From: a virus
Length of the DNA: 45,136 nucleotides
Strand: one strand, 5' to 3'
IMG/VR virus record: IMGVR_UViG_3300020190_002958
Location: 1-45,136 of that record
In this document: one piece after another, positions 4,267 to 24,081 of the stretch
Position numbering within the stretch: position 1 is the stretch's first letter
Layout of the letters: every line of letters starts with the position of its first letter
Translations under genes and position numbers: made by a program
The notes under the pieces: model-generated
Seen by the model: the letters and a program-made list of their open reading frames with translations, nothing else
Database searches by the model: none
Told to the model about the DNA's origin: nothing

Positions 4267-5139
4267 ATGAATCAAGTAGTCGTATTGTTACCAGGCGGAT
4301 TTAAACCACCACATGCAGGACACTTGGGTCTTGCCAACAAATTTGCTAGTAGACCTGATGTGTCCAAAGTAATAGTTATGGTTGGACCAAGCGAACGTAA
4401 CGGCATAGGTTTACAACAAAGTTTAGCAATTTGGAATTTGTTGAAAAAAAATCCAAAGGTACAGGTACAGTCTGTAGACAACGACAGCCCTATGAATTCG
4501 GCGTTTGGTTATGTATTTAATCTACCAAAAAACAGTGTGGAAACTATAGCTTTAGGTGCAAGTGCAAAAAGTTTAGAAGATGCAAAAAGAAGTAAAATAT
4601 TTGCATTAGCTGTAGAACGTTACAAAACCAAACCAACAAAAGATGGTGCTACTGCACCAACAGGTATTCAAGTTGTTGACATGACAGACGACGTTCCTGC
4701 TATTTATCTGGGCAGAAATGATGATAAAAATGGTCGAAGTATCAGTGCTAGTACACTTAGACAAGATATAGCTGATAAAAACTTTGAAAACTTTAAAACG
4801 AACTATCCTAACATAAGTCTTCCAGTAGTTAAACAAATTTATAAAATACTAACCAATATGAATATTAAAGAAAGATTCGAAAAATTACCAAAAGAAAAGA
4901 AAGAACTATTAAAAAACTTGGTCAATGAAAAAGTAAAGTCACTTAAACGTGAACTTATGAATGCTAAAATCAAAGATAAAGTTCATGAATATGTTACCGG
5001 CGAAGAAGATTCTTCATCTACTTATCCTTCGATAGATGTATCGTTTACCGAACAAAAGAAAAAGAATGTTAAAATTCAAGAGTTACAAACCCGTCTTGAA
5101 AAATTAACAAAAGCAATTGATACATTAAAAATAAAATAA
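4267..5139 (+). CDS. HxGH-type nucleotidyltransferase (cytidylyl/adenylyl transferase fold)
   Basis: The product is 290 residues. Residues 1-200 show the HxGH nucleotidyltransferase superfamily: LPGGFKPPHAGHLGLA near the N terminus (HAGH is the nucleotide-binding signature), VMVGPS, and GRSISASTLRQDI near residue 160, which matches the ISxxTLR motif. Family members join a nucleotide to a small phosphate compound, as in CTP:glycerol-3-phosphate cytidylyltransferase or NMN adenylyltransferase. The substrate cannot be told apart here. The last 95 residues are a charged helical extension (EKLPKEKKELLKNLVNEK, then a coiled coil) not found in the minimal enzymes, and it may attach to another protein. 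The gene stands between tail tube and tail chaperone. Confidence 0.75.
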   Translation: MNQVVVLLPGGFKPPHAGHLGLANKFASRPDVSKVIVMVGPSERNGIGLQQSLAIWNLLKKNPKVQVQSVDNDSPMNSAFGYVFNLPKNSVETIALGASAKSLEDAKRSKIFALAVERYKTKPTKDGATAPTGIQVVDMTDDVPAIYLGRNDDKNGRSISASTLRQDIADKNFENFKTNYPNISLPVVKQIYKILTNMNIKERFEKLPKEKKELLKNLVNEKVKSLKRELMNAKIKDKVHEYVTGEEDSSSTYPSIDVSFTEQKKKNVKIQELQTRLEKLTKAIDTLKIK

Positions 5140-5179
5140 TCAAAAAACTATAATAATGTTATATGTATAAACACAAGTT

Positions 5180-5986
5180 ATGAGTGACGAGATTTACATC
5201 CAACGAAACAACAATAATCAACCAACTGTAAGCAAATTTCCTTCTGAACAAATAGATCTACCATCAGAAGGGTGTGTTTATCCAACAAATCACCCCCTTA
5301 GTAACGGTAAAGTAGAACTTAAGTATATGACCGCTAGAGAAGAGGATATTCTTACAAATGCTAATAACATTCGTAGAGGTAACGCTTTAGACAAATTATT
5401 GGAATCGTTGATTGTTGAAAAGGATGTCAAGTTAAACGATCTAATTAGTGCCGATAAAAGTGCTTTGATTATAGCCTGTAGACGATTAGCTTATGGTGAC
5501 AATTATGGACCATTTAAATATAAATGTCCAAAATGTGGTGAAGACAGTCAACATAACTTTGATATTTCAAAACTAGTAAATGTAAATATACCCGACGAAA
5601 ATAGACCAAAAAACAATAATGCATTCGAATGTACATTACCATTTTCAAAACGTGTTGTTACAATCAAGTTATTGACTCATAGAGATGAAACTGAGATTGA
5701 AAATGAACTTAAAGCGTTAAAGAAGATATCAGCAGACAATGTACCTGAACTGAGTACACGCTTGAAATATCATATAGTATCAGTTGACGACAATCCAGAC
5801 AGAGGTTATATACGATCATTTGTTGATAAAGAACTACTATCTAGAGACAGTTTGGAATTACGCAGATTTATCAAAAAAGTATCACCCGATGTAGAACTCA
5901 AGTTTGACTTTCAATGTAACAGTTGTAGTCATGAGGACAGACTGGAGGTGCCGTTGACGGCTGAATTTTTTTGGCCTTCGACCTGA
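5180..5986 (+). CDS. gp26-type baseplate hub/tail chaperone protein with zinc ribbon
   Basis: The product is 268 residues. IDLPSEGCVYP near residue 27, YMTAREEDIL near 50 and an LL.SLI.....DL region match the T4 baseplate hub gp26 type. A zinc ribbon is visible: CPKCGEDS near residue 115 and CNSCSHEDR near 249. The protein ends AEFFWPST. The equivalent position, upstream of the tape-measure gene, is held by the G/GT tail chaperones in lambda. Next to its stop, a T7 run allows entry to a frame that stays open to 6203, so a longer form is likely. The start ATG lies 40 bases after the nucleotidyltransferase stop with no strong ribosome-binding site. Identity as a hub-assembly chaperone rather than a fixed hub subunit is inferred. 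Confidence 0.7.
   Translation: MSDEIYIQRNNNNQPTVSKFPSEQIDLPSEGCVYPTNHPLSNGKVELKYMTAREEDILTNANNIRRGNALDKLLESLIVEKDVKLNDLISADKSALIIACRRLAYGDNYGPFKYKCPKCGEDSQHNFDISKLVNVNIPDENRPKNNNAFECTLPFSKRVVTIKLLTHRDETEIENELKALKKISADNVPELSTRLKYHIVSVDDNPDRGYIRSFVDKELLSRDSLELRRFIKKVSPDVELKFDFQCNSCSHEDRLEVPLTAEFFWPST
5966..5972 (+). promoter_or_regulatory. Candidate slippery T7 run for a programmed frameshift
   Basis: Seven T's read as GAA TTT TTT TGG in the main frame, four codons before the TGA at 5984-5986. A +1 (or -2) shift here enters a frame that is open from 5958 to 6203. Confidence 0.55.
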
Positions 5987-6203
5987 AGATAGACTCGTAA
6001 TATACGACACTCTATTTTTGATTTCCTATAACTCAGAAGGTGCTGTATCATTTTATGATGCTTATGATATGCCTGTATTTTTGCGTAATTATTATCTAAA
6101 GAAATTGTTAGAAACGAAGAATAAAGAAAGTCAAGCAGAAGATAAGGCAGCTAATCCTACAAATATCAAAAAAAGCATAGGTAAAATAAAACCAGGCTGG
6201 TAA
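5973..6203 (+). CDS. Frameshift extension of the tail chaperone (gp51/T-like part)
   Basis: The frame is open from 5958 and encodes, after the T-run, GLRPEDRLVIYDTLFLISY, then YDAYDMPVFLRNYYLKKLL and a charged tail ending KIKPGW. The best available starts are a TTG at 6018 and an ATG at 6066, and both would discard the protein-like segment before them. The sequence is therefore best read as a C-terminal extension reached by frameshifting from the 5180 gene. The Y.MP...R.YYLKK pattern resembles the second half of hub-chaperone pairs (gp51 in T4, T in lambda GT). It could instead be a separate gene with the TTG start, or a real mutation. It ends 26 bases before the tape-measure gene. Confidence 0.55.
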   Translation, partial: GLRPEDRLVIYDTLFLISYNSEGAVSFYDAYDMPVFLRNYYLKKLLETKNKESQAEDKAANPTNIKKSIGKIKPGW

Positions 6204-6217
6204 TTCTAGTTTTGTTA

Positions 6218-6225
6218 TATTTATA
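6218..6225 (+). promoter_or_regulatory. TATTTATA late-promoter-like motif
   Basis: TATTTATA, four bases (AGAT), then the ATG at 6230. No Shine-Dalgarno site. Confidence 0.5.
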
Positions 6226-6229
6226 AGAT

Positions 6230-8806
6230 ATGGCGAAAGACGAAGCACCAAAACTAAAAGAAAATGTCAAGGCTGCATCCGATGTAGCAGACTATTCGGA
6301 GGAGAGGGCCCGTTCAGAGCAACGTACATCCGCTGCTATGGAACAACAGTTAGACATGGCTCAAAAATTAAAACTATACCAAAAAGAGTTGAACGATTTG
6401 AGAGAGAAAGAAATTACATTTTTAAAAATGGGGTTTGGTATAAGCGAAAAAATACAAAAAGTAAAAGATATAGAAAATAAAAAAGAAGAAATGTTACAAG
6501 CGTTGACTGATGAAATTATAAAAGAAACAGAAAAAGGAAACAGTGAAAAACTTCAGAAATTGATAGCTCAAAAAGCGCAACTTCAAGATCAAAATACATT
6601 ATTTAAAAGACAGGCTTTTTATTTAAAAAGTAGTATTTATGCGGAAGAAATATTTAATACTGCTGCTTTGGCTGTATATGAATCACAAGATAAAATTGCA
6701 TCAGCTTTGGGCAAAGGCGTACTTGAACTGTTAAAACAACGTTCACTTTTTGGTATAATACAAACGGCTACAAAAACTATATTAGATTTTGCACTAGCAA
6801 TTGATGATGAAATTGTAAAGCAAAACAGAGAACTAAATTTCAGCAGACAAGCTAATCGTGACTTAAACGAGTTAACTTTAAATATATACAAAAACAATGC
6901 TGCTAATGGCTTGACTTTAGAAGATGCGGTTAAATCGACAAACACATTAACGAAAACATTCGGTAAAAGTGTTGCACTCACAAGTGGATTGGCTGAAGAT
7001 TTATCACAATTAGAAAATAAACTTGGTTTATCGACAGAAACTAGCGCAGCCTTTTTAGATAATATGGGCGCTGTAAGTCGTGATGTTGATAGTGCATCTG
7101 CTTCAAGTATATTTTTCGCTAAACAGATAAGTAAAACATCGGGCGTAGGCCTTGGTGATTTGATGAAAGAAGCTGCAGACGCAAGTGGCGATTTAGCAAT
7201 ATTTTCAGGTCAGTCAGGTACGAACATTTTGAAAGCTGCTGCAAATGCTAAATTACTGGGTGTATCACTTAACAGCTTTGTAAATGCTTCAAGTAAATCA
7301 TTACAGTTTCAAAGTAGTATACAAGCTGAATTAAAGGCAAGTGTATTATTGGGTAAAAATTTGAATCTACAAGGATTACGTCGGGCTGCTTTTAATAAAG
7401 ACACACTTGGTGTAGAACGTGAATTATTAAACATCATTAAACGTACAGGCAAATCATTAAAGGATTTAGATCCTATACAAATGCAAGCATTAGCCGATGC
7501 AACTGGTTTGACAGCGGAAGAAATGTTAAAGATTGAAAACAGAAGAAAATTGGATAAAAAAACATTACAAGAAATTGATAAAATCCGTAAAGAATCATTA
7601 GTTGATGGTGAAAAGACTGCAAAACAAGATGCACTGAGAGCAGAGAATTTGAATCAGATACGTATGTTAGGCACAAGACTTGCTGGTATGTTAGCTGAAA
7701 TAGTTGTACCCTTAATACCACAAATAAACAGAGTAATGGTAGGTATTACCCGATTTTTTACAGACAATAAAGAACAAATACAAGCTCTCGGTAAAGGATT
7801 GGTTGACACCATCGTACCCGCTTTAAAAGCAGTTGCAAAATTTTTGTTACCATCTGCCGGTGGTAAAGGACCGTTGTTTGGAATGATTCAACCTGGCCCT
7901 TGGACGAAATTTGCAGGTATAATCGCGGGCACTGTTTTATCTATAAATCTTTTGGTTAAAGGTGTAAAAGGTATAGGTAGCGCTATTAATGCCACGGTTG
8001 TACAACCCGTTAAAACAGTAATAGATACAGCAAAGTCAGCATTAGATTACGGAAAAAAAGGTATTAATATATTCAAAGGTTTTAGAAAAGGTGGTATAAA
8101 AGGTGGTATAACTGCTGCAGTTGGTGAAGCAACTAAAGGTGAAAAGGGAGAAGACAAATGTTGTGCCGGAGTAAGTAGTGCAGCAGATTCAATTTCAACT
8201 GTTGCTGAAACAATGACTGAAGGACTGTTGGGTAAACAAATTGGTACTTTTATTGCAAGATTTTTACCTGCTGGATTGAAACCTGTATTTGCAGGTTTAT
8301 TTACAAGTTTAGGTGGATTTTTAGGCACTTCAATTAGCGGAATTTTAGCTGGTAGTGCAGCTGCAATTGCGGGAGCAGCTACAGCGGCTGTAGGTACCGC
8401 TGTAGGTGGTTATATGTTAGGTGGTCATTTAGAAGAAAAATACGGTCTTGGCACACGGCTGCTTGAGGAAAAATCAATAACAGGCGGACCATCACTAACT
8501 CGTAGATTGAGTGGTTTACACGCAATGGATTTGGAACGAGAAGAACATGAGAAAAAAATTAAAGAAATGGAAAATAAATTGTCTGAAAAGAAAGCACGTA
8601 AGATGGTAGGTTTAAGTACAAGTGGTGAACTAACTCCCGACCAACAATCTGCAATTAATGGCCTTGTAGAAAAATTCGGAGAAAAACTAGCTAATTTACC
8701 ACAAAATGTTGTACAAGTTGAATATAGTAGATTCCAACAAAATAGTTCAGTAGCGTCGAGTCGTGGTAATAAAAATCAGGTGTCAGTGATGCCACAAATA
8801 AATTAA
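6230..8806 (+). CDS. Tape-measure-like protein
   Basis: The product is 858 residues. The first 130 are charged coiled coil (EARSEQRTSAAMEQQL region, then repeated K/E heptads). Residues about 200-480 are alpha-helical and Ala/Ser-rich. Residues about 500-760 contain several hydrophobic stretches (LAGMLAEIVVPLIPQI, FAGIIAGTVLSINLLV, and an Ala/Gly-rich one near GILAGSAAAIAGAATAAVG), as in tape measures that later contact the membrane. The last 90 residues are again coiled coil. A lone CC pair occurs in EDKCCAGV. Size, composition and place (tail tube, chaperone with frameshift, this gene, baseplate) fit a tape measure, the functional equivalent of T4 gp29, although no motif proves it. Confidence 0.72.
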   Translation: MAKDEAPKLKENVKAASDVADYSEERARSEQRTSAAMEQQLDMAQKLKLYQKELNDLREKEITFLKMGFGISEKIQKVKDIENKKEEMLQALTDEIIKETEKGNSEKLQKLIAQKAQLQDQNTLFKRQAFYLKSSIYAEEIFNTAALAVYESQDKIASALGKGVLELLKQRSLFGIIQTATKTILDFALAIDDEIVKQNRELNFSRQANRDLNELTLNIYKNNAANGLTLEDAVKSTNTLTKTFGKSVALTSGLAEDLSQLENKLGLSTETSAAFLDNMGAVSRDVDSASASSIFFAKQISKTSGVGLGDLMKEAADASGDLAIFSGQSGTNILKAAANAKLLGVSLNSFVNASSKSLQFQSSIQAELKASVLLGKNLNLQGLRRAAFNKDTLGVERELLNIIKRTGKSLKDLDPIQMQALADATGLTAEEMLKIENRRKLDKKTLQEIDKIRKESLVDGEKTAKQDALRAENLNQIRMLGTRLAGMLAEIVVPLIPQINRVMVGITRFFTDNKEQIQALGKGLVDTIVPALKAVAKFLLPSAGGKGPLFGMIQPGPWTKFAGIIAGTVLSINLLVKGVKGIGSAINATVVQPVKTVIDTAKSALDYGKKGINIFKGFRKGGIKGGITAAVGEATKGEKGEDKCCAGVSSAADSISTVAETMTEGLLGKQIGTFIARFLPAGLKPVFAGLFTSLGGFLGTSISGILAGSAAAIAGAATAAVGTAVGGYMLGGHLEEKYGLGTRLLEEKSITGGPSLTRRLSGLHAMDLEREEHEKKIKEMENKLSEKKARKMVGLSTSGELTPDQQSAINGLVEKFGEKLANLPQNVVQVEYSRFQQNSSVASSRGNKNQVSVMPQIN

Positions 8807-19824: not shown

Positions 19825-20958
19825 ATGGCAAAAAAACAAAGTAAAGAAAATCAAAGAGATGAACTTATTGAACTATTAGCTGAAGAGTTAAACAAAGCTA
19901 ATAAAGATGGTGGTAAGATTGCTTATTTCTTAGACGAACAAGAAAATCCTGCAGAAATTAGTGATTGGATTAGTACTGGTTCATCAATACTAGATTTAGC
20001 TATTAGTAATCGTCCTCACGGTGGTTTGCCTGTTGGTAAAATGGTCGAATTTAACGGTTTGGAAGGTACTGGTAAAAGTCTAGTATCCGCACACGTTGTA
20101 GCTGATACTCAACGAAAAGGTGGAGTTGCAGTAGTAATTGACACTGAAAATGCAGCTGCTCCTGAGTTTTGGAAGAGTTTAGGTGTAGATCTATCTAAGT
20201 TACTATATGTTCAATGTGAAACAGTTGAAGATATTTTTGCTCAGATGGAGAAGATGATTGCAATTGTTCGCAAGAGCAACAAAGATCGTATTCTAACAAT
20301 CATCGTTGACTCTGTAGCAGCAGCATCAACAAAGGTAGAACTAGAAAGTGATCATGGTAAAGATGGTTACGCAACTGGTAAGAGTATTATTATTAGTAAA
20401 GCAATGCGTAAGATTACCACTATGATTGGCCGTCAGAAAGTTCTTACTGTATTTACTAACCAACTACGTCAAAATCTAAATGCCATGGCGTTTGGTGACA
20501 AGTATGTAGTAAGCGGTGGTAAGGCACTAGCATATCACTGTAGTGTACGTGTCCGTTTGACTAATACAGGTAAGCTCAAGAAGGGTGAAGAAATCATCGG
20601 CAATGAGTGTAAAGCTGTTGTTGTAAAAAATCGTATGGGTCCACCACAACGGCAAGCAAGTTTCGATATCTATTTTGATAGCGGTATTGCTGATTATGGT
20701 AGTTGGATTAAAGTTTTAAAAGAACAAGGTCTAATTAAACAGGGTGGAGCTTATTACACATACAAGAAGAATGATGAATCAGACTGGAAGTTTCAATCCA
20801 AAGATTTTGTAAGCGTGATGCAGACCGACAAAGAATTAAGTGAAGAAATTTACTTGAAGATTTGTGACGCTGTTATCATGAAATACAAAAATCCAAACAG
20901 TCAAATTGTTGAAGATGCTGTTGTTGATACCAACGAAGAAACTGCTGGTAACGAATAG
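19825..20958 (+). CDS. uvsX: RecA/UvsX-type recombinase
   Basis: The product is 377 residues. Walker A is GLEGTGKS (78-85), followed by VVIDTENAA (the catalytic Glu region). Walker B is in LTIIVDSVAA. FTNQLRQNLN is loop L1-like, and VSGGKALAYHCSVRVRL matches the RecA switch and strand-exchange region. It catalyses homologous pairing and strand invasion for recombination-dependent replication and repair, acting on DNA coated by the gp32 product upstream. The P-loop is of the GTGKS type, nearer to bacterial RecA than to the GPSKS-like loop of T4 UvsX. The C terminus is acidic. It lies 59 bases after gp32 with a terminator between, so it needs its own promoter or read-through. Confidence 0.92.
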   Translation: MAKKQSKENQRDELIELLAEELNKANKDGGKIAYFLDEQENPAEISDWISTGSSILDLAISNRPHGGLPVGKMVEFNGLEGTGKSLVSAHVVADTQRKGGVAVVIDTENAAAPEFWKSLGVDLSKLLYVQCETVEDIFAQMEKMIAIVRKSNKDRILTIIVDSVAAASTKVELESDHGKDGYATGKSIIISKAMRKITTMIGRQKVLTVFTNQLRQNLNAMAFGDKYVVSGGKALAYHCSVRVRLTNTGKLKKGEEIIGNECKAVVVKNRMGPPQRQASFDIYFDSGIADYGSWIKVLKEQGLIKQGGAYYTYKKNDESDWKFQSKDFVSVMQTDKELSEEIYLKICDAVIMKYKNPNSQIVEDAVVDTNEETAGNE

Positions 20959-20977: not shown

Positions 20978-21005
20978 GTTTTTCCGCATTGCAATGCGGA
21001 AAAAC
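20978..21005. terminator. 28-base perfect palindrome, bidirectional terminator-like
   Basis: A perfect inverted repeat of 14 bp (GTTTTTCCGCATTG at 20978-20991 and its complement) begins 19 bases after the uvsX stop. The arms start with T5 and end with A5, so each strand has a GC-rich core hairpin (CCGCATT/AATGCGG) followed by T's. It can terminate in either direction. Confidence 0.75.
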
Positions 21006-21053
21006 TTCTTTTTGAAGATCGATCTGAACGATTATATCAAATTTATAAAAGAT

Positions 21054-21079
21054 GAATCGATATGTGGATTCTTTTTTTT
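21054..21079 (+). terminator. Second terminator downstream of uvsX
   Basis: A short stem (GAATC at 21054-21058, GATTC at 21067-21071) is followed by eight T's. The stem is weak, but the T-run is good. Confidence 0.5.
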
Positions 21080-21097
21080 ATTTATATTTATGTATAT

Positions 21098-21570
21098 ATG
21101 AATAACAATTTACTTAATGAGACATTTAATAAACATTTGAATCATTTGCGTAATAGGTTATAGTTAGAAGAAGATTATCTAAAAATTTATGAGGAAAAAA
21201 TCATTTTTATGGGTCAGAAAACATCATGGTAGATGATAATGGAGTTAAACGAAGTGTACCTGTAGTTGTAGCTTTTGCTGAAAAAAATGAGAAAAAATAT
21301 TTTAAAAAAGATTTTCCTATTTAAAAATTAGAACATGAATTAAAGTGGTGGAATAAACAAAATGAAGAATATCCTGAACATTCTAATAAAAGAATGATGA
21401 AAGCAAATACTAAATGTCCACTTTTGGTAATTAAAAGTAAGTCTTATGGTTTATCTGTATCAGATGGTCTTAATAGATTAAAAAAAGCAAGAGATATTGA
21501 ACATAAAACAACCATAGATGTTTATATAGTTCCTGAAGAAGATATGCCAGAAGAAGCAATTATTAAATGA
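21098..21570 (+). pseudogene. Decayed gene, C-terminal part resembling a ParB-like fold
   Basis: This otherwise empty stretch between uvsX and RNase H reads as one protein only if two stops and a frameshift are ignored. From the ATG at 21098 the frame meets TAG at 21161 and TAG at 21230. The reading then continues one frame over from about 21226 (VDDNGVKRSVPVVVAFAEKN), meets TAA at 21322, and runs to TGA at 21568. The last 82 codons are intact and protein-like: CPLLVIKSKSYGLSVSDGLN, RLKKARDIEH, IDVYIVPEEDM. The DGLNRLKKA pattern resembles ParB/sulfiredoxin-like small phage proteins. A short product from an internal ATG near 21393 is possible. The final TGA overlaps the ATG of the next reading frame. 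Confidence 0.6.
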
Positions 21571-21695
21571 ACAACTTTGACAAAAAAGAAATAAAGAAGT
21601 TATTTTCTTTATTTCAAAACATAGAAAGAGATTCCGTCACCGGAGGACTTAAAAAATCACTTAATAGTGATGTCCTTTTGGTTGACGGATTGTAG
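21567..21695 (+). CDS. N-terminal fragment of RNase H (5'-3' exonuclease), broken frame
   Basis: The product is 42 residues: MNNFDKKEIKKLFSLFQ at the start and SDVLLVDGL at the end, then TAG. LLVDG is the first metal-binding strand of FEN-family nucleases, and homologues continue directly with NTYIR. That continuation is found in the next frame five bases later (TTG, TAGTG, AAC). The start ATG overlaps the stop of the decayed gene upstream. The stop shares its G with the GTG of the downstream part (TAGTG). This could allow reinitiation, need a frameshift, or simply mark a broken gene. Confidence 0.65.
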   Translation: MNNFDKKEIKKLFSLFQNIERDSVTGGLKKSLNSDVLLVDGL

Positions 21696-22642
21696 TGAAC
21701 ACTTATATTCGGTGTTTCATGGCCGTACCTAGCATGAACGATGACGGCATTCATACTGGTGGTATTGCTGGTTTTCTTAAAAGTGTAGGCTATGCTGTAA
21801 AATTATTACAACCAACCAGAGTTATTGTTGTGTTTGATGGTAATGGTGGTTCTCAAAAACGCCGTAAAATATATCCTGATTATAAAAATGGCAGACGTAC
21901 AAATATACGTTTAAATAGAACTTACGAAGATTTAAGTGACACGGCAGTTGCAAGTCAAAATTTTAAAAAAGAATTGATACGTACGGTAAATTATCTTGAT
22001 ACGTTACCTATTACATTGATGGCAATAGATCAAATTGAAGCTGACGATACTATTGCTTATCTCGCTAGAGAAACATTCAAAGATAGTAATGTAACTATCA
22101 TGTCTACAGACAAAGACTTTTTACAGTTGGCAAGTGATAAGATAAAAATTTGGAGTCCTGTAAAGAAAAAGATTTTTGGTTGTAAAGAAATATTAGATGA
22201 ATATGGTATTACATGTAATAATTTTATTTATTACAGAATAATGGAAGGTGACGAGAGTGATAATATACCAGGTTTAAATGGCATAGGATTAAAACGTGTT
22301 ATTCAGGCGTTTCCATTTTTATCTAATGATAAACAGTTTTCATTACAAGAACTGTATAATTACTGTGAAAATCACAAAAGCAAATATAAAATTTACGAAA
22401 GAGTTTTAGACAATAAAATTCTTCTCGAAAGGAACTATGCTTTGATGCAATTGTGCGATAGTTCAGTACAATCATTTACGCAATTACGTATTGAAGAAAT
22501 AATTAATAAACCAATACGTCGTATAGATAAGCTTACTTTTAGTAAACTTATAACTGAAGATAAGATGTGGAATAATTTACCAAACTATATGGTTTGGTTG
22601 AGTGAGACGTTTGGTAAACTAAATAGTTTTGTTCAAGACTGA
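21695..22642 (+). CDS. RNase H / 5'-3' exonuclease (FEN family), main part
   Basis: The product is 315 residues from a GTG at 21695 that overlaps the TAG of the upstream fragment. Metal-binding acidic residues of the family are visible in VIVVFDGNGGS, IEADDTIAYLA and MSTDKDFLQL. The helix-three-turn-helix DNA-binding part is GDESDNIPGLNGIGLKR. The enzyme removes RNA primers and flaps from lagging-strand fragments, working with gp32 and the helicase. The first catalytic Asp (VDG) is missing here and lies in the 42-residue fragment just upstream, so this polypeptide alone lacks one metal ligand. Whether two chains assemble or a recoding event joins them is unknown. The helicase gene starts 53 bases after the stop. 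Confidence 0.82.
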   Translation: MNTYIRCFMAVPSMNDDGIHTGGIAGFLKSVGYAVKLLQPTRVIVVFDGNGGSQKRRKIYPDYKNGRRTNIRLNRTYEDLSDTAVASQNFKKELIRTVNYLDTLPITLMAIDQIEADDTIAYLARETFKDSNVTIMSTDKDFLQLASDKIKIWSPVKKKIFGCKEILDEYGITCNNFIYYRIMEGDESDNIPGLNGIGLKRVIQAFPFLSNDKQFSLQELYNYCENHKSKYKIYERVLDNKILLERNYALMQLCDSSVQSFTQLRIEEIINKPIRRIDKLTFSKLITEDKMWNNLPNYMVWLSETFGKLNSFVQD

Positions 22643-22695: not shown

Positions 22696-24081
22696 ATGGA
22701 AGAGAAACATATTATTGATAACTTAAAAAAATTCGGTCTAGACTTTCAAATTAAGTGTATTTCAAGTCTTGTCTCAGATAGACAATTTCTTGAAAGGATA
22801 CATGACATAATTGACGTTGAATCATTTGAAACAGATGCTCACCAATGGATTATAAAAGAAATTATCTTTTATTTTAACCAATACAAAGATTTACCGACAC
22901 TTAACGTTTTTAAAGTTAGAATTGAAACGATAAGCAACAAAGTTTTAACACAAAGTGTAGTAGATAATCTCAAGTTGATATATCAAAAGATGAATGATAA
23001 TGATATCACTTTCATCAAGGAACAGTTCTTAGAATTTTGCAAGAATCAAAAGTTAAAAAACGCGATTTTTGAAAGTGCGGATCTATTGGCTACTGGTCAG
23101 TATGAAAAAATCAAACACGTTGTAGACCAGGCTATGAAAGCCGGCATAGAACGTAATATCGGTCATGACTATAGTGAAGACGTTGAAAAACGTATGAGTA
23201 TAATGAGTCGTAACTGTATTAAAACCAACTGGCAAGAAATCGACAGTATCATGGATGGTGGTCTTGGACCTGGGGAACTTGGTATTATTACAGCCTGTGC
23301 TGGTAGTGGTAAAAGTTGGGTACTAAGCAAACTTGGTGCAGAAGCTATGAGACAAGGAAAGAATGTTGTACATTTTACGTTGGAACTAAATGAAAATTAT
23401 GTTGGTTTACGCTATGATAGTTGTTTCACAGGTATTGACTTTCAGAATATACGTAACAACGTTGATATTGTTAGACAAAAGATTGGAGAAATTTCCGGTA
23501 AACTTGTAATCAAATATTTTCCTATCAAGACTATATCAGCTTACAGTTTAAAAGCTCACGTCGAACGACTTGCTGTGCTTGGTACTAAGATTGATATGAT
23601 TATTGTTGATTATGCTGATATCCTAAGACCAACGCACAGTGAACGCAACAGTAACAGCTATAGTGAAGCCGGTGGTATCTATGAAGAACTTCGTAGTATT
23701 GCCGGTGAACTTCAAGTTCCTATTTGGAGTGCTTCACAAAGTAATCGTGCTGCTATGGATGAAGATATCATTCAGGCAAACAATATTGCTGATAGTTATC
23801 GTAAAATTATGACTGCTGACTTTGTTTTGAGTCTAAGTCGTAAAGTCAATGATAAACAAGCTAACACTGCACGGTTTCACGTAATTAAAAATCGTTTCGG
23901 ACCAGATGGTTTGACTTTTCCAAGTAAAATGAATGCTGGTTGTGGTCAGATTGAAATATATTCCGAAAATAGTAGAGAAGGTCTAGCAATTCAAAATGAA
24001 ATGATGGATGGTGAGAATCAAGTCAAAAAGATGTTGAAAAATAAATGGAATGCTCATAATAGTGATGAAGATGATGAATAA
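22696..24081 (+). CDS. 41: Replicative DNA helicase, DnaB/gp41 type
   Basis: The product is 461 residues. The N-terminal 150 residues are helical, as in DnaB-family N domains. Walker A is ACAGSGKS (200-207). FTLELNENYVGLRYDSC is the H1a/catalytic Glu region, IIVDYADILRPT the Walker B motif, and WSASQSNRAA the H3 sensor with its Gln. The product would form a hexamer that unwinds DNA 5' to 3' at the fork. The position after gp32, uvsX and RNase H genes fits a replication module. The start ATG (TTTAATTATG) has no Shine-Dalgarno site. The primase partner (gp61) is not in this window. Confidence 0.88.
   Translation: MEEKHIIDNLKKFGLDFQIKCISSLVSDRQFLERIHDIIDVESFETDAHQWIIKEIIFYFNQYKDLPTLNVFKVRIETISNKVLTQSVVDNLKLIYQKMNDNDITFIKEQFLEFCKNQKLKNAIFESADLLATGQYEKIKHVVDQAMKAGIERNIGHDYSEDVEKRMSIMSRNCIKTNWQEIDSIMDGGLGPGELGIITACAGSGKSWVLSKLGAEAMRQGKNVVHFTLELNENYVGLRYDSCFTGIDFQNIRNNVDIVRQKIGEISGKLVIKYFPIKTISAYSLKAHVERLAVLGTKIDMIIVDYADILRPTHSERNSNSYSEAGGIYEELRSIAGELQVPIWSASQSNRAAMDEDIIQANNIADSYRKIMTADFVLSLSRKVNDKQANTARFHVIKNRFGPDGLTFPSKMNAGCGQIEIYSENSREGLAIQNEMMDGENQVKKMLKNKWNAHNSDEDDE

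Follow-up and report, generated by a model that had tools for sequence, protein, structure and literature searches.

The interrupted exonuclease locus

The window analysed here, by which we mean the whole 45,136-nucleotide virus fragment (IMG/VR record IMGVR_UViG_3300020190_002958, positions 1 to 45,136), carries genes for an ssDNA-binding protein, uvsX, an exonuclease, a DnaB-like helicase and ribonucleotide reductase in that order, and the succession uvsX-exonuclease-helicase is common to the window and its cultured relatives. In the window the exonuclease gene is divided by a stop codon into an N part and a C part (Table 1). A preliminary description of this DNA had placed the break inside the VDGLN motif and translation bears this out; the upstream frame gives 42 residues ending in LLVDGL followed by TAG, a GTG sharing its G with that stop opens a 315-codon frame that continues with NTYIR, and the VDG aspartate, the first metal ligand, is thereby severed from the rest of the 5'-3' exonuclease. 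The C part has a Pfam match to the 5'-3' exonuclease family (PF02739, E 6e-28), the protein aligns through VDG with the Taq 5' nuclease, and the acidic active-site motifs VDG, EADD, DKD and GD.SDNI are conserved. On these domain and motif grounds the interrupted gene is classed as that of a T4 RNase H/FEN-like 5'-3' exonuclease.

Table 1. Position of genes and sequence features around the exonuclease junction of the window
Feature	Position	Strand	Details
uvsX (RecA-like recombinase)	19825..20958	+	phrog_97, E 4.5e-75
Homing endonuclease remnant, N-terminal part	20993..21083	+	frameshifted; tblastn, blastn
Decayed ORF	21226..21570	+	internal TAG; phrog_17560, E 3.2e-7
Possible endonuclease C-terminus remnant (..KQLLNEQL)	21554..21577	+	overlaps start of exonuclease N part
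Exonuclease N part	21567..21692	+	42 codons; ends with the metal-binding VDG and the take-off codon
5' hairpin (predicted)	21633..21689	+	lower arms TCCGTCA 21633-21639 / TGACGGA 21683-21689
Inner stem of hairpin	21656..21671	+	ATCACT 21656-21661 / AGTGAT 21666-21671
Putative take-off codon TTG (Leu)	21690..21692	+	
Stop codon TAG	21693..21695	+	directly after take-off codon
Putative landing codon GTG	21695..21697	+	same second and third bases as take-off codon; or else a reinitiation codon
Exonuclease C part	21698..22642	+	resumes at AAC; 314 codons and stop; PF02739, PF01367; purifying selection
DnaB-like replicative helicase	22696..24081	+	phrog_19, E 4.7e-79; downstream neighbour

Recurrence of the interruption

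An error of sequencing or assembly can be rejected, since the TAGTG junction recurs in 31 contigs, the window included, from many samples, with TTG as the preceding codon in all except L177 (CTG); in contig L002 the junction is identical to that of the window. The window's junction is therefore neither an error nor a private mutation. More widely, 68 of 283 homologous loci are interrupted at exactly the position of the window's stop codon, a share that is biased upward because the pattern scans (VDGx-stop-N..) used to find distant stop alleles look for stops. A comparison with related phages, suggested earlier as a search for either an intact gene or an intron at this site, gave 208 intact homologous loci against the 68 interrupted ones, with the common joint VDGL-NT(F/Y), and no intron; wherever the beginning of the C part could be placed, the N part adjoins it or is at most 7 nt away, and no group I intron or other large insert occupies the site. 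The arrangement expected of a bypassed gene, two ORFs separated by untranslated nucleotides and joined in homologs, is thus the one seen here.

The stop alleles fall into about 16 lineages at ~40% protein identity, use TAA, TAG and TGA, and resume the frame 5, 6 or 7 nt after the codon preceding the stop (hereafter the take-off codon), always at the same Asn; their N parts differ from one lineage to another. Among the 80 nearest relatives many read TTG TAG TG, others are intact, and a few read TTG TAG TTA AAC, which stays in frame with the stop kept. Pattern scans gave L153 (CTT TAA CTG), L154 (CTG TGA CTG), L156 (CTT TAG CTC), L161 (CTT TAG CTG), L164 (CTG TGA CTC), L166 (CTT TGA CTC), the L372 group (CTT TAG CTT), L388 (CTC TAG C GTC, 7 nt) and L401 (ACT TAG CT, 5 nt), and pattern-free protein retrieval gave L099 (CTC TAA CTT) and L299 (ACG TGA CA, 5 nt). 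The stop follows the take-off codon directly in all listed stop alleles, though the search patterns demanded a stop there; the pattern-free retrievals, which found the window type, L006/L047, L099 and L299, each have it in that place too. Among wider relatives retrieved without a pattern L299 alone is interrupted, and stops occur in distant phages, therefore the trait is sporadic but widespread. On a tree at least 13 changes between the stop and intact states are required, by a quick method and with some long branches. In cultured phages the exonuclease homologs examined are uninterrupted, and the sole match in the bacterial genome set (genome_contigs), L420, proved to be unrelated.

Reassignment of TAG was considered and rejected, since the window's own uvsX has TAG as its stop and the junctions of other lineages carry TAA or TGA. 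Of 33 main ORFs checked in the window (24 forward, 9 reverse) uvsX is the one that ends in TAG, yet TAG is the stop at the junction.

A stem-loop flush with the take-off codon

RNA folding predicts a strong stem-loop upstream of the stop, which in the window ends at the last base before TTG. Its 3' arm consists of the VDG codons in every unique stop allele, and it is flush with the take-off codon in 31 of 31, two of these falling one base short. All 31 unique stop alleles reach a flush-stem score of at least 6.5, and 7 of 157 intact alleles reach at least 7 (Fisher 4.5e-29, to be read with the caution that unique sequences are not fully independent and that sequence counts overstate independence). 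Compared with synonymous codon shuffles, stop alleles have a mean z of -4.8 and intact ones of -1.6.

Because VDG is fixed in the protein, the hairpin bases that change are mostly codon wobble bases. Among 19 representative alleles the pair at the Gly wobble is standard in 17 and of six types, the 5' arm offering G to GGC, A (once G) to GGT, T to GGA and C or T to GGG, and the partner at the Asp wobble is G for GAC in 14 and A for GAT in five (that is, 14 G-C and five A-T pairs); the terminal pair is broken in two, L404 and L168. Across stop alleles the predicted hairpin thus carries compensating changes, and the 5' mRNA stem-loop that is a further feature of bypassing occurs with such changes throughout the 31 unique alleles. 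On the 3' side, stem-loops are no stronger in stop than in intact alleles and there is no consistent structure.

Strong hairpins, most of them not flush, occur in this region in some intact alleles too. Those of L016 and L031 (z -6.5 and -5.1) differ in shape and lie ~60 nt before VDG, within the sequence coding for the N terminus. In the intact L217, L226, L268, L271, L274 and L241 the hairpin is flush or nearly so before the take-off position, and it is possible that these are revertants or ancestors of stop alleles.

Codons on either side of the gap

When the take-off codon is compared with the triplet before the resumed Asn, the putative landing codon, at least two of three bases are shared in 17 of 19 alleles (chance about 0.16 each) and the first two bases are identical in 13 of 19. 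All five candidate out-of-frame hops match at two or more bases, these being TTG to GTG, CTG to GTG, CTC to GTC (L388), ACT to GCT (L401) and ACG to ACA (L299). The 6-nt alleles L199 (CTT to CGA) and L200 (CTT to GTA) match at one base of three and have perfect hairpins, and full codon matching may therefore not be essential. Two points in the window itself speak against a bypass: its landing codon, which agrees with the take-off codon at two of three bases, is mismatched to the take-off tRNA in the first codon base, and a GTG can serve as a start codon.

The latter is the basis of a two-chain enzyme, in which termination at TAG with coupled reinitiation at the overlapping GTG would give 42- and 315-residue chains that assemble. 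TAGTG is a classic stop/start overlap and is conserved in the 5-nt TAGTG alleles. However, other alleles with this hairpin at this position have TTA, CTT, CTG, CTC, GTC, GTA, GCT, CGA or ACA before the resumed codon, of which none or few are plausible starts, and in several lineages the first in-frame ATG, GTG or TTG of the C part lies 22-71 codons downstream, so that some form of recoding is needed there. A two-chain enzyme would also place the first strand and the catalytic Asp on a separate 42-residue peptide. We regard it as rather improbable overall; simple reinitiation seems to be allowed by the GTG alleles only, because other lineages have different triplets in that place, and for the window allele it remains a rival.

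Stop-codon readthrough, with an amino acid inserted at the stop, would suit the 6-nt alleles, which stay in frame as VDGL-stop-X-NTFIR. It is nevertheless highly improbable, as it leaves the 5- and 7-nt alleles, including the window, unexplained, all three stops are in use, two residues would be added beside the catalytic Asp, and the Leu codons flanking the stop always belong to one codon box (in in-frame 6-nt Leu-Leu alleles both are CTN or both are TTR). Nor does the window, which is a genome fragment, contain a tRNA gene as a suppressor candidate.

Hop sites in other genes were sought by scanning 44,609 ORF ends for a codon match of at least two of three bases, a flush stem of at least 7 and an open frame after the hop; this gave 49 candidates, and the 19 that lie outside the exonuclease resemble chance or ordinary gene borders.

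Selection on the exonuclease

Among stop alleles the pairwise dN/dS of the C part is 0.05-0.16 where estimable, which points to purifying selection on the downstream half of the enzyme. A full-length RNase H elsewhere in the genome, which the preliminary description had offered as a refutation, did not turn up in nine stop-allele records with contigs of up to 303 kb. These observations bear on whether the gene is simply dead, having lost its function through a scar or faulty repair after endonuclease cutting, as the endonuclease gene upstream in the window, itself decayed, might suggest. Such a loss is scarcely credible given the dN/dS values, the lack of another exonuclease copy in those records, a hairpin that is retained and compensated, and the many independent lineages. 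Likewise a chance mutation, one of four origins proposed earlier, is excluded by the recurrence, the C-part dN/dS and the conserved hairpin taken together. Of the other three, a recoding site is the best supported, a two-chain enzyme could apply to GTG alleles such as the window's and fails for lineages that lack the GTG, and the mobile-element scar is taken up below.

The upstream endonuclease and its cassette

In T4-like phages a free-standing NUMOD3 endonuclease gene adjoins a conserved replication gene, with presence/absence polymorphism and gene conversion at the site. In the window the neighbour upstream of the exonuclease is indeed decayed, as had been noted, and holds what is left of a homing endonuclease gene of which relatives have an intact copy. 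The first remnant corresponds to residues 4-34 of the intact L017 endonuclease (86-89% identity by tblastn, 89% by blastn), a foreign decayed ORF of the phrog_17560 type occupies the place expected for the middle of the gene, and the possible C-terminal remnant, weak alone (7 of 8 residues, E 0.57, tblastn), has the same overlap with the exonuclease in L017 DNA.

Three stop lineages (L017/L177, L153 and L166) have an endonuclease gene of 303-341 aa between uvsX and the exonuclease. The products combine NUMOD3 with an MTES_1575-like nuclease domain (Pfam score below the curated cut-off), match a homing endonuclease phrog, and are homologous at 31-34% identity to each other. An endonuclease thus adjoins the interrupted target in these lineages, and an insert of more than 700 nt between uvsX and the exonuclease is found in none of the 208 intact loci. 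Most stop lineages have no adjacent endonuclease today.

The cassette is precisely present or absent in near-identical genomes, L017 against L010 and L016. L017 (stop and endonuclease) and L010 (intact) have identical C-part proteins, and in DNA they are identical to 99.4% as far as the uvsX stop and to 98.5% beyond the hop site, beginning with the very next base; 1095 nt lie between in L017 and 128 nt in L010. From this near-identity outside the insert the edges of the cassette are the uvsX stop codon and the hop site. The idea that the junction is the scar of an excised mobile element is therefore right as to the mobile element and wrong as to excision, the site being the edge of a homing-endonuclease cassette. 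The N-part DNA of the window is 94-97% identical in other cassette alleles, and between the window and L017 dS is 0.04 in the N part against 2.2 in the C part, a contrast to be expected had the N part travelled with the cassette; the low value may also owe something to structural constraint on the hairpin.

Other insertions were seen at these loci. In L199 a Mom-family DNA modification gene (6514-7218) lies between uvsX and the interrupted exonuclease, where endonuclease is absent. The helicase gene of L154 (about 4318-6970, reverse-complement coordinates) has an apparent intein (SGVGK/CIGGDST ... SHNT/WILTAIG) that is in turn split by a free endonuclease ORF bearing the motif EYFGIFWH, as in a fractured intein, and L299 has the C-terminal part of an intein in the same gene from 3468 (..KVHCFYANGILSHNTWILTAIGA). 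In L166 the helicase gene, from about 3976, is in several frames and the Walker A region is absent, possibly by deletion, misassembly or another cassette.

A proposed stop-hop

We suggest that the exonuclease gene is probably read whole, by a hairpin-aided ribosome jump of 5-7 nt over the stop, and we consider it quite likely that the junction is a programmed bypass, or 'stop-hop', neutralising a homing-endonuclease-protected target. The ribosome would translate 42 codons and arrive at TTG, the stop then occupying the A site. Behind the ribosome the adjoining hairpin would refold, and the peptidyl-tRNA-Leu would let go as the ribosome advanced by 5 nt (by 6 or 7 nt in other alleles). Re-pairing at the landing triplet would allow translation to continue with Asn, and the product would be one normal VDGLNTYIR exonuclease. 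The hop site would be the protected form of the endonuclease target. A NUMOD3 endonuclease, whose gene lies immediately upstream, would cleave intact alleles in the conserved sequence of the catalytic site, and through repair these alleles would acquire the endonuclease gene, a replacement N part, the hairpin and the hop site; the hop would keep the recipient's gene working and the interrupted target would resist the enzyme. The window retains the proposed hop site next to a decayed endonuclease gene. What the sequences show is the recurrence, the compensated hairpin, the codon re-pairing pattern, the selection, the edges of the cassette and its link with the endonuclease; from this pattern we infer the hop and its efficiency, and likewise the target and activity of the endonuclease. 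Besides the two points on the window's landing codon, the poor codon matches of L199 and L200, the strong hairpins of some intact alleles, the stop lineages that lack a neighbouring endonuclease and the Pfam nuclease score below the curated cut-off weigh against this reading.

One variant of bypass, which does not exclude the above, is a regulatory switch: hop efficiency would set the level of exonuclease, and the hairpin and stop would persist for that purpose and not as the by-product of a selfish cassette. The many stop lineages without an adjacent endonuclease, and the strong hairpins that intact alleles of the same clade keep near the start, would fit it. We think it unlikely, as L010 and L017, phages that are otherwise nearly identical and share the same C-part protein, differ in having the intact and the stop allele, and endonucleases adjoin stop alleles only.

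Discussion

To our knowledge T4 gene 60 was long the only thoroughly studied phage bypass and is the single well-established phage jump. It has been described as unique (PMC3014915), and in the model for it a 5' stem-loop forms again behind the ribosome, drawing the mRNA along once the peptidyl-tRNA has been released at the codon preceding the stop (PMC5009743; PMC11194080). The proposed exonuclease hop resembles it in the stop directly after the take-off codon, in the shortness of the first ORF (46 codons in gene 60, mostly 31-44 in these alleles) and in a 5' stem-loop, for gene 60 the proposed motor (PMC5009743; PMC11194080). The selfish-element logic is also alike, since the gene 60 bypass is linked to a homing endonuclease insertion (mobA) and protection from cleavage has been proposed (PMC5009743; PMC3014915). 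However, the gap is 50 nt in gene 60 and 5-7 nt here, the take-off codon is Gly there and Leu or Thr here, and the exonuclease alleles differ further in the gene affected, in a hairpin that abuts the take-off codon, in having no consistent 3' structure and in recurring in many phages.

Laboratory 'stop-hops' in E. coli constructs likewise used matched codons flanking a stop (PMC5009743), but these are synthetic, and according to a 2016 review no natural in-frame stop-hop is known (PMC5009743). In Magnusiomyces capitatus mitochondria short inserts are also hopped, with codons sometimes imperfectly matched (PMC5009743), but there at 81 context-independent sites, compared with one site per genome with a dedicated hairpin here. 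The exonuclease cassette shares with the free-standing homing endonucleases of T4-like phages a NUMOD3 gene beside a replication gene, presence/absence and gene conversion; protection there is by silent changes or an intron, whereas here it would be by a bypassed out-of-frame or stop-bearing insert.

No report of bypassing in phage RNase H/exonuclease genes was found in the open-access literature, and the bypass proposed here would be a new form of programmed bypassing, pending protein evidence. Somewhat more tentatively, although we still favour it, these alleles may constitute a natural family of stop-hops, driven by a flush hairpin over 5-7 nt without strict codon matching; at a single catalytic codon of phage exonucleases such hops would have emerged or spread time and again, as the half of a homing endonuclease cassette that gives protection.

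Automated annotation will score genes of this kind as broken. The ~16 lineages, with their variable gap (5, 6 or 7 nt), stop and landing codon, are a ready-made mutational series for testing if a hairpin is by itself enough to push the ribosome, over what distance, and how much codon re-pairing this takes. If the stop-hop is confirmed, it would show a way in which a selfish endonuclease could settle in an essential catalytic site and leave the host gene alive.
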